Shown piece after piece: positions 37,124 to 43,401 of a stretch of 64,000 bases of DNA. Position numbers and translations under genes: made by a program. Origin of the DNA: Neelides folsomi (lineage: Eukaryota; Arthropoda; Collembola; Neelipleona; Neelidae). A model generated the notes under the pieces. It was not told where the DNA came from, did no database searches, and worked only from the letters and a program-made list of their open reading frames with translations. Location of the stretch: NCBI GenBank assembly GCA_034687125.1, contig JAQGBZ010000195.1:1-64000 (forward strand). Reading direction: 5' to 3'. Each line of letters starts with the position of its first letter. Positions within the stretch are counted from its first letter, which is position 1.

Positions 37124-38650
37124 TTATGATCTAATTGCCACATCTGCACAGGCTCGAAATGTCTGAAAATTATTAATTAATCAATTAAAAACACTATTAA
37201 ATATTAAACAAAAGATTAAATATACTCTAATTATATTTTTATTTAAAAATGCTAATGTATGAAATCATACTTCTTGGTTTCCACATCCCACGGCCCTATA
37301 TTAAATATATCAAAACAATTTTATCAATTTTAAATATTATTAGCCACCAACTTCCCATTAATAACTAAATACTTATTTAATAAAATAAATTAATTATTCT
37401 TAAAGTTTAAATGTCTCTTACCCGGTTCCATTTCCACAGTCTCCCCAATTATTTCCAGCCTTATACTCCCACCGAAAAACCTTTAAACAATTTATCGTAA
37501 ATTATCCAGCCCTTTGATTTTCAAAATAAACCAATTTATAAGAGACTTACACAATGATTACAAGTCATGCCTCGTGGAAGCATATATTGGAGATCATAAA
37601 AGCCAGTTTTGTCTACTGGAAACTTTGTTCCTTGACCATCAGCTCTCTATGTAAATTCCAAGGATAGTTCAATACAAACGGAATAGCAATTTCACATAAA
37701 ATCTAGTATGCCGTATATGGCCGATGGATGGCCGGGGCTATCTTTAAATTTTTTACTCTTTACCCCCTGCTATCTTTCGGAACCCTGCCATCTTTAAATT
37801 ATTCAGCCTAAAATGTAATTAATCAAAATTTTATGGACATATTTTAATGAACAAAGGGTGTTTATTTCTAAACAAGCTACTATCCTTAAACTGTTTCATC
37901 ACATTAATGAGTTGTTTAGATTAATGTTTTACATTTGAACCTAAAAATATAAAGATTTTGCACTAAATATGCAAGGGTGTATATTATGTCCATTATATAC
38001 CCGGCCATCTTTCGGGACCCTGCCATCTTTTAAAATAATAGCCTTTACCCCCGGCTTTCTATCGGACCCTGCTATCTTTCGAACCCCTGCTATCTTTCGA
38101 CCAAATACGGTACATATTTTATGTATGAGCATTATTACGTGAAGCTTGACAAATTTGTTCTCAATTGGCGGATTGTTCTGTGGACATATTTCGAATTCCA
38201 TAAATCCTCTATGAGCTGCTGTGATTTGAACTTGTAAATTGACTTTTTGATTCATTGTAAAATTTGCTGTTTTAATTCCTCTCCCATAATGTCCACCTGG
38301 CTCATTATCTCTTGGTATTGGATCACTATAATCATCCCCACAGATTCCACATCTACCTCCGTTGACTTCATATTGACGCTGCCCATGAAAATAATAGTTT
38401 AATAATAATAGTAATACATATTTGTAATTTGTAATAAATCATATTTAAACGAGTTTACCTGAAATCCTCCACAAAATAACTGATGATCGTTATAATTAAT
38501 GGGAGGATTGTAGTGCTGGAATTCTCCAAACCTCCAAAGTGAAGAAGTTGAAGCTGGTTTTAAAAGTCTCCCATGGCCCTTTACTTCATTTGACAAAAAA
38601 TAAACTCCTAAAATTAAAATAAGTAAAGGAAAGAACTTTGACTTGACCAT
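37124..38650 (-). CDS. AA15 lytic polysaccharide monooxygenase, gene 1 of three
   Basis: Secreted copper enzyme that oxidatively cleaves chitin and/or cellulose (AA15 family). Exons: 38650-38459, 38378-38139, 37646-37551, 37480-37422, 37295-37271, 37162-37124, all GT-AG and in phase, giving 216 residues. Residues 1-25 are a signal peptide ending VKG. Cleavage exposes the copper-binding N-terminal His26 (HGRLLKPASTSSLWRF). The second brace histidine is His120 in TAAHRGFMEFEICP. The C-terminal GCGNQETFRACADVAI carries the probable axial Phe206. Other family marks are NYNDHQLFCGGF and CGICGDD. The start at 38650 is chosen over an in-frame ATG at 38698 because a TATA box (TATATAAA, 38716-38709) predicts transcription from about 38685, downstream of that ATG. 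Intron 2 holds an inverted-repeat element. Chitin versus cellulose preference cannot be read from the sequence. Confidence 0.93.
37711..38110. mobile_element. Inverted-repeat element with internal short tandem repeats, in intron 2 of AA15 gene 1
   Basis: The left end CCGTATATGGCCGATGG and the reverse complement of the right end (CCGTATTTGGTCGAAAG) match at 21 of 27 bases when extended. Inside are about eight direct copies of a 17-19 base unit close to CCCTGCTATCTTTCGGA, in two blocks (about 37733-37800 and 37999-38102) around a 200-base AT-rich centre. It fills about 400 of the intron's 492 bases and is much more GC-rich than its surroundings. The ends suggest a non-autonomous DNA transposon with subterminal repeats. 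No clear target-site duplication is seen and the family is not recognised. Confidence 0.5.
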
Positions 38651-41906: not shown

Positions 41907-43401
41907 TTAAAGCAATTTTCTTCCACTCGGTCTTGATACACTCGGTTTTCGACTTATAGAAATGTCAGCACATCCCTGCAATGAAATTTTTATATTAAGA
42001 ATCTCAACGCAATTTATTTTAAAAAGTAAAAAAACTTTTAAGACATTAATGAGTTTTTACCCTAAACGTTTCTTGTGGTCCGCAATCAAAATTAATCCCA
42101 TCATCACAAGGGTGCCAAGTATTTCCTGTCAAGCCACACATTAGCATATATGATAAAAAATTGAATATAAACGAAATTCGCAAACCAATTTGCAAGTTAT
42201 CTGTTCGATCAATTTAAGATTTACCCGTACTGAAAATTTAAAAGATTTGTGTTAATTATATTTATAGAACATTCCAAATCGTCAAAATCGTCAACTGATT
42301 AATTTAAAAATTAAAATTTTAATGTTTAAATTCAATTTAAAATATCCAAACGGTATATAGTAAAATTACATGTAATTCCACTGGAAAACACATTGAGAGC
42401 ATTGGAGTCCACTGGGGAGTCTGAACTTCAATTGGTAAAGGGTCCAATGATATCTCTCAGCATCTTTCACAATAACCTTAGGTCCGGAACCTTATGAATG
42501 GCAAAATTGAATATCAAAAGAATCCATTTCATCAAGATGATTTTATGCATGATATTTAATCAAACCGTCTGCTTGTTCCAAAAGATATTTGTCAAGGCAG
42601 GTTTGATTTGCTGGTGTGTGAGGGCTGTTGTGAGGACAAACGCGAAATTCCATGTGACCTTTGTGACTCGTTGTTAAATTGACGGCCACGTTGATAATCT
42701 AAGGACATTTATAATGTCAATCTATTGACAGCTTTATCAGCATTCCGCTAATGACGCTTAATAGTAAATAATAATCTTTTGCCAATAAACTTGTAATCCA
42801 TTAATAAACCCAACATTAATTAGATTGCAAAAACAGTTTCGTTAATATCAACGTTAAATAATGCAGATAATCACTAACAGATCCTTCAGGATAATTTCTG
42901 ACAATGATTCCTCTCCCGTATTTTCCTCCGCCTTCGTTTTCTCTCGGAGTTGGTTGATTCCACGGGTCTCCACAAATCCCGCATTTCCCTAATAAAATGT
43001 CAGAGAAGCCACCCGAGAATGACTTTGGTAAGAAATAACGAACTGTGTGAAATAAAGGAAAAACGAAACCAAACGAATAAAATCAAATGTTCTGACCTCC
43101 GTTTTGATTATGTTGAACCTAAAACAAAGTTGGAAGCTATTATTATTTATTGAAAATTTATAATATAAATGTTTATTTAATTAAAATTTGAATGGAGCCT
43201 CACAGCAACTCCTCCGCAATACAATTCGTTGTCGTCGTAGTTTACCGGAGGATCATACTTTTGAAATTCATGGAATCTCCACAGTGTGGATCTCCCCGGC
43301 GGATCGTTCAATCTCCCGTGACTGTGAACATGGCCGATTTTGAGGGAAATTACGAGAAGTGGGAATGCGAAGAACGACACTTTCAAAGCTCCTTTCTCCA
43401 T
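41907..43401 (-). CDS. AA15 lytic polysaccharide monooxygenase, gene 3 of three, with a 5-nt microexon
   Basis: Secreted copper-dependent polysaccharide monooxygenase. Exons: 43401-43204, 43118-43097, 42988-42879, 42698-42566, 42490-42370, 42229-42225, 42125-42061, 41975-41907. The sum is 723 nt, giving 240 residues. Signal peptide 1-27 ends HVHS, then His28 (HGRLNDPPGRSTLWRF). The second brace histidine is His122 in TTSHKGHMEFRVCP. The probable axial Phe217 is in CGPQETFRGCADISI. Without the 5-base exon TACGG, the reading frame cannot join VFQWNY to NTWHPCDDG. With it the protein reads WNYITGNTW, matching the W-x-Y-x-A/T-G-N-x-W motif of genes 1 and 2. The 22-base exon 2 is also very small. 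The C-terminal tail SRKPSVSRPSGRKLL is longer and more basic than in the paralogues. Confidence 0.92.
42225..42229 (-). other. Five-nucleotide microexon of AA15 gene 3
   Basis: The minus strand reads TTTTCAG|TACGG|GTAAATC, good acceptor and donor consensus around five bases. It joins the phase-2 end ...AAT TAC AT of exon 5 and the GA AAT ACT TGG start of exon 7 to give N-Y-I-T-G-N-T-W. Reading through the donor instead reaches a TAA two codons after GGT, truncating the protein before the conserved GCGPQETFR end. Confidence 0.8.

Follow-up and report, generated by a model that had tools for sequence, protein, structure and literature searches.

Exons of only a few bases are known but rare. In plants, a 2022 study reports 2,398 microexons no longer than 15 nt, and describes 1-nt exons in APC11 and VPS55 as well as a 5-nt rice exon that was validated by RT-PCR and is missing from the annotation (PMC8831610). 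In flies, Drosophila homothorax carries a 3-nt exon (PMC7392893), and a tool has been presented for finding exons of 3-7 nt in Drosophila (PMC8042270). A single-base exon has also been reported in the placozoan mitochondrial cox1 gene (PMC5436844). Here we describe g3, a gene of the springtail Neelides folsomi that is very probably an AA15 LPMO gene with a 5-nt exon, TACGG; this exon adds to the exons of 1, 3 and 5 nt known in plants or flies. Like the plant and fly microexons, it is a handful of bases flanked by introns and is easily missed by annotation, and, as in plants, the same bases lie within a larger exon in relatives. It differs from them in belonging to an AA15 LPMO, in having a length that is not a multiple of three, and in being, like its splicing as a whole, a matter of prediction, with constitutive use predicted. 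Among the literature matches listed, we found none that brings AA15 and a microexon together.

AA15 LPMOs are copper enzymes that attack tough sugar polymers. Their intron-exon structures are described as analogous in virtually all AA15 orthologues of other invertebrate genomes, and ten cysteines in five disulfides as conserved across the family (PMC5823890). We analyzed a window of 64,000 nt (positions 1 to 64,000 of contig JAQGBZ010000195.1, forward strand; all coordinates are window positions), in which g3 has eight exons, including two of 22 and 5 nt, and is set beside other AA15 LPMOs by its protein only. The gene model is as follows.

43204..43401, minus strand: exon 1, with the ATG start, a signal peptide by appearance and the presumed mature N-terminus HGRL
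43097..43118, minus strand: exon 2, 22 nt, encoding VQHNQNG; itself a microexon, needed for the frame
42879..42988, minus strand: exon 3, encoding GKCGICGD... (gene model)
42566..42698, minus strand: exon 4, with the second copper His in TSHKGH (gene model, alignment)
42370..42490, minus strand: exon 5, ending in phase 2 (sequence, gene model)
42230..42369, minus strand: intron 5, 140 nt, GTAATT...TTTTCAG; missing from the seven other AA15 loci
42225..42229, minus strand: exon 6, the 5-nt microexon TACGG (sequence, frame, splice scores, paralogues)
42126..42224, minus strand: intron 6, 99 nt, GTAAATC...TTGACAG; its phase-1 position is common to five of the seven other AA15 loci
42061..42125, minus strand: exon 7, GNTW...CGPQETFR, with surface Trp173 and axial Phe190 in mature numbering (gene model, alignment)
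41907..41975, minus strand: exon 8, ending TTGCTTTAA and the stop (gene model)

At the protein level, g3 matches Thermobia domestica TdAA15A (PDB 5msz) with an E value of 1.7e-53 over residues 1-198 of the 198 queried and with identity at 92 of the 191 aligned positions, a match close enough to fix the fold. It scores 62.2 bits against Pfam LPMO_10 (cut-off 23). Exon 2 aligns with VQWVKNGGKCG of 5msz. The histidine brace is present, the HGRL His (presumed mature H1, with the cleavage site placed by eye) and H95 aligning with H1 and H91, and the presumed mature protein has ten cysteines; g3 thus has the N-terminal His, second His and ten Cys of the arthropod AA15 LPMOs TdAA15A, TdAA15B and insect LPMO15-1. 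Y166 and Y184 of TdAA15A correspond to Trp173 and Phe190 in g3, and both Tyr replacements, by Trp and Phe, have been reported for insect LPMO15-1 (PMC9156745). A further difference is at Ala89 of TdAA15A, two residues before the second copper His, where g3 has Thr (mature residue 93, 42671-42669, minus strand). The microexon, with its neighboring bases, would supply the Ile-Thr-Gly just before Asn-Thr-Trp173, which by homology probably lies close to the active-site surface. As an AA15 LPMO, g3 has oxidative cleavage of chitin or cellulose as its predicted activity.

The initial annotation had placed TACGG between TTTTCAG and GTAAATC, and we read these three elements directly, in that order, on the minus strand at 42229-42225; the bases before TACGG are TAAATTTTCAG and those after it GTAAATC. 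Its further claims about the junction were borne out. Exon 5 ends TGG AAT TAC AT, in phase 2, and exon 7 starts GA AAT ACT TGG and requires one preceding base, so that the two cannot be joined directly: the joint would read WNYMKYLAPL-stop. With TACGG inserted, the junction becomes WNYITGNTW, keeping the WxYxxG motif, and the coding sequence sums to 723 nt, the 241 codons proposed (240 amino acids and a stop). Because the frame fails without TACGG, the gene would look broken if the exon were overlooked. If a microexon is defined as being no longer than 30 nt and as having on each side an intron whose splice sites are valid, TACGG qualifies at 5 nt with CAG before it and GTAAAT after it, with the caveat on splice sites that the acceptor of the next intron is weak.

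How readily might such an arrangement arise by chance? Considering single internal exons with GT donors and flanking introns no shorter than 30 nt, the 244-nt gap between exons 5 and 7 holds ten AG...GT internal exons, and TACGG alone among the ten is in frame and free of stops. It also has the highest sum of acceptor and donor scores of the ten (15.0), under a scoring scheme trained on 22 introns of six AA15 genes, the two introns flanking TACGG being left out. With 6.2 for its acceptor and 8.7 for its donor, the microexon falls within the family ranges over those 22 introns (acceptors 2.3-12.1, donors 3.2-10.0, both in-sample), as does the upstream intron's donor at 6.0. The acceptor of intron 6, ATGTGTGGCTTGACAG, reaches 0.9, whereas the lowest of the 22 training acceptors has 2.3 (in-sample), and this counts against the microexon model; the same weak acceptor is required by every GT-AG model in which exon 7 begins there. 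Donor and acceptor together, the introns on either side of the microexon score 12.2 and 9.6. Across 20,000 dinucleotide-preserving shuffles of the gap, with its first 6 and last 8 nt held fixed, some AG-N5-GT appeared in 8.7% and an open one in 4.3%; a 5-nt exon encoding [ATSG]-Gly in place appeared in 0.21%, the motif having been chosen post hoc.

Most of the new support comes from the paralogues. With the g3 protein as query, a search of the genome (75.1 Mb in 840 contigs) returned at least 26 exon matches at at least eight loci: three in the window (g1, g2 and g3) and one on each of contigs C102, C284, C365, C3 and C400. A phase-1 intron at the 3' edge of the microexon is found in five of the seven other loci (g2, C102, C365, C3 and C400), within the Gly codon that ends WxYxxG (Ala in C3), while g1 and C284 continue without an intron there. 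The upstream intron, intron 5, occurs in none of the seven. With TACGG spliced in, g3 has exactly the WxYxxG length of its paralogues. As the paralogues match both the intron position and the spliced length, the frame and the 3' edge are supported independently of the g3 sequence itself, a support that the initial annotation, drawn from the window alone, could have only in part. A profile built without g3 scores the protein at 298.2 bits with the microexon and at about 254 when it is skipped or read through. The C284 and C400 loci, being partially modelled or decayed, were used for the junction and kept out of the profile, the splice-site training and the gene tree.

Two of these paralogues have features of their own. 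The C102 paralogue (L005) has Tyr-Gly in place of the expected mature His-Gly, lacks an NxW...C stretch after the junction, and may have lost copper binding. The C400 paralogue (L019) looks decayed by eye, with an apparent frameshift, an altered CxxC and a second exon without a clear acceptor.

The closest competitor to the microexon at the protein level dispenses with it: a single intron would begin with the GTAATT donor after exon 5 and finish in a non-canonical TT, leaving GACAG exonic and giving WNYMTGNTW. This protein is equally good (298.8 versus 298.2 bits). Protein score alone does not decide between the two; the usual splice-site rules do. GACAG reads as the YAG end of an acceptor, and NCAG at the end of a phase-1 intron, followed by GA, yields x-Gly by itself. 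The GT-TT intron also leaves the pairing of CAG, TACGG and GTAAAT unexplained, all 22 training introns are GT-AG (though they were modelled so), and GT-TT introns are not known to form a regular class. We consider this reading very unlikely. Nor does recourse to another canonical splice choice between exons 5 and 7, or to an assembly indel, help much. Four open single-intron combinations with GT/GC-AG ends do exist, the best of which has a donor and acceptor sum of 1.2 and puts one Arg in place of the 17 residues SGLQCSQCVFQWNYITG; the other three lose some of those residues and bring in translated intron sequence. If the assembly had an indel here, one would not expect an AG-N5-GT that fits to stand at the shared intron position, and we give this pair of explanations the least credence of all.

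It is also conceivable that the gene simply ends after exon 5, through truncation or a retained intron, or that the microexon is usually skipped to give a truncated product. Exon 5 does run directly into TAC ATG TAA (a transcript retaining the intron would contain TTACATGTAA), and recognition is believed to become harder when exons are very small (PMC4317164). Drift would be expected in a decayed tail, however, and exons 7 and 8 are still open, conserved and mutually in frame, and hold F190 and the conserved cysteines; we judge this explanation improbable. The microexon interpretation of the initial annotation is therefore upheld: it is the sole canonical GT-AG solution tried that preserves the conserved motif as well as the frame, and the paralogues independently support its 3' edge and the spliced length.

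On the sequence evidence, we regard it as highly probable that g3 is an eight-exon AA15 LPMO gene (43401-41907, minus strand) whose sixth exon is TACGG and owes its existence to a gained intron. The microexon is best read as the final 5 nt of an older exon, severed by an intron private to g3: a new intron would have entered five bases upstream of the older phase-1 intron and left TACGG as an exon of its own. That the upstream intron was gained, rather than repeatedly lost, is suggested by parsimony, none of the seven other loci having it. The direction rests on parsimony because the gene tree (seven rows: g1, g2, g3, C102, C365, C3 and TdAA15A) has no supported inner branch and its bootstrap did not settle. 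The age of the downstream intron is not fixed, as g1 and C284 lack it.

As for the source of the private intron, a genome-wide search with 139 nt of it, by a method that skips simple repeats and very common words, matched only the intron itself and a 32-nt piece of its own opposite strand; a repeat or introner origin, for which no second copy was found, thus has no support. A direct duplication of the target site, considered by eye because TAC flanks the intron on either side, was likewise set aside, since its removal misses the length of the paralogues.

The 22-nt exon 2 of g3 looks similar in kind to the severed microexon. Its 5' intron shares codon and phase with one in g1, and its 3' intron has no counterpart at that place in the five other modelled paralogues. 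By eye, an intron of C284 lies four bases beyond the position of this 3' intron, close to it and not identical. In the same cluster, g1 (38650-37124) likewise includes an exon of 25 nt, at 37295-37271 on the minus strand.

How might an exon of five bases be spliced? The introns on either side of TACGG are short (140 and 99 nt) and have GT...AG ends. Because both are short, they are likely removed one after the other by intron definition, and whichever left first, the microexon would become the end of a normal-sized exon. Once joined, the microexon would complete an Ile codon with its third base, encode Thr and open a Gly codon with its final base, and the frame would thereby be restored for exons 7 and 8 with the axial Phe and the last cysteines. 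If it were skipped, the computed product reads WNYMKYLAPL-stop, with 201 amino acids and without Trp173, Phe190 and the last cysteines; reading through past exon 5 gives a computed 195 amino acids. One could imagine the exon as an on/off switch, regulated skipping yielding the 201-residue precursor or mRNA decay, in a lineage that repeatedly makes such exons, the 5-, 22- and 25-nt exons of two cluster genes all stemming from introns gained near old ones; we consider this combined reading unlikely.

Several other features of the window and assembly were recorded. Rfam and tRNA scans of the window gave no match. For viral contigs, five stretches matched the pattern for relatives and none was confirmed. 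The large intron 2 of g1 (37700-38110) contains a repeat with two copies of 95-97% on C522 and C590, and there are at least 17 further partial matches, five of which lie no more than 20 bases from where a contig starts. At about 45347-44200 on the minus strand, upstream of the AA15 genes, lie exons that we take by eye to be OCIA-domain-like. Contig C742 carries mitochondrial genes in the order ND2-COX1-COX2-ATP6 under code 5 (names assigned by eye), which fits an arthropod.

The g3 gene suggests that an extremely small exon can arise in a simple way, namely by the gain of an intron a few bases from an existing one. A standard gene predictor would probably call this gene for a presumably working enzyme truncated, and a family-wide search for exons cut in the same manner could bring to light LPMOs, and other genes, that have been missed in small arthropod genomes.
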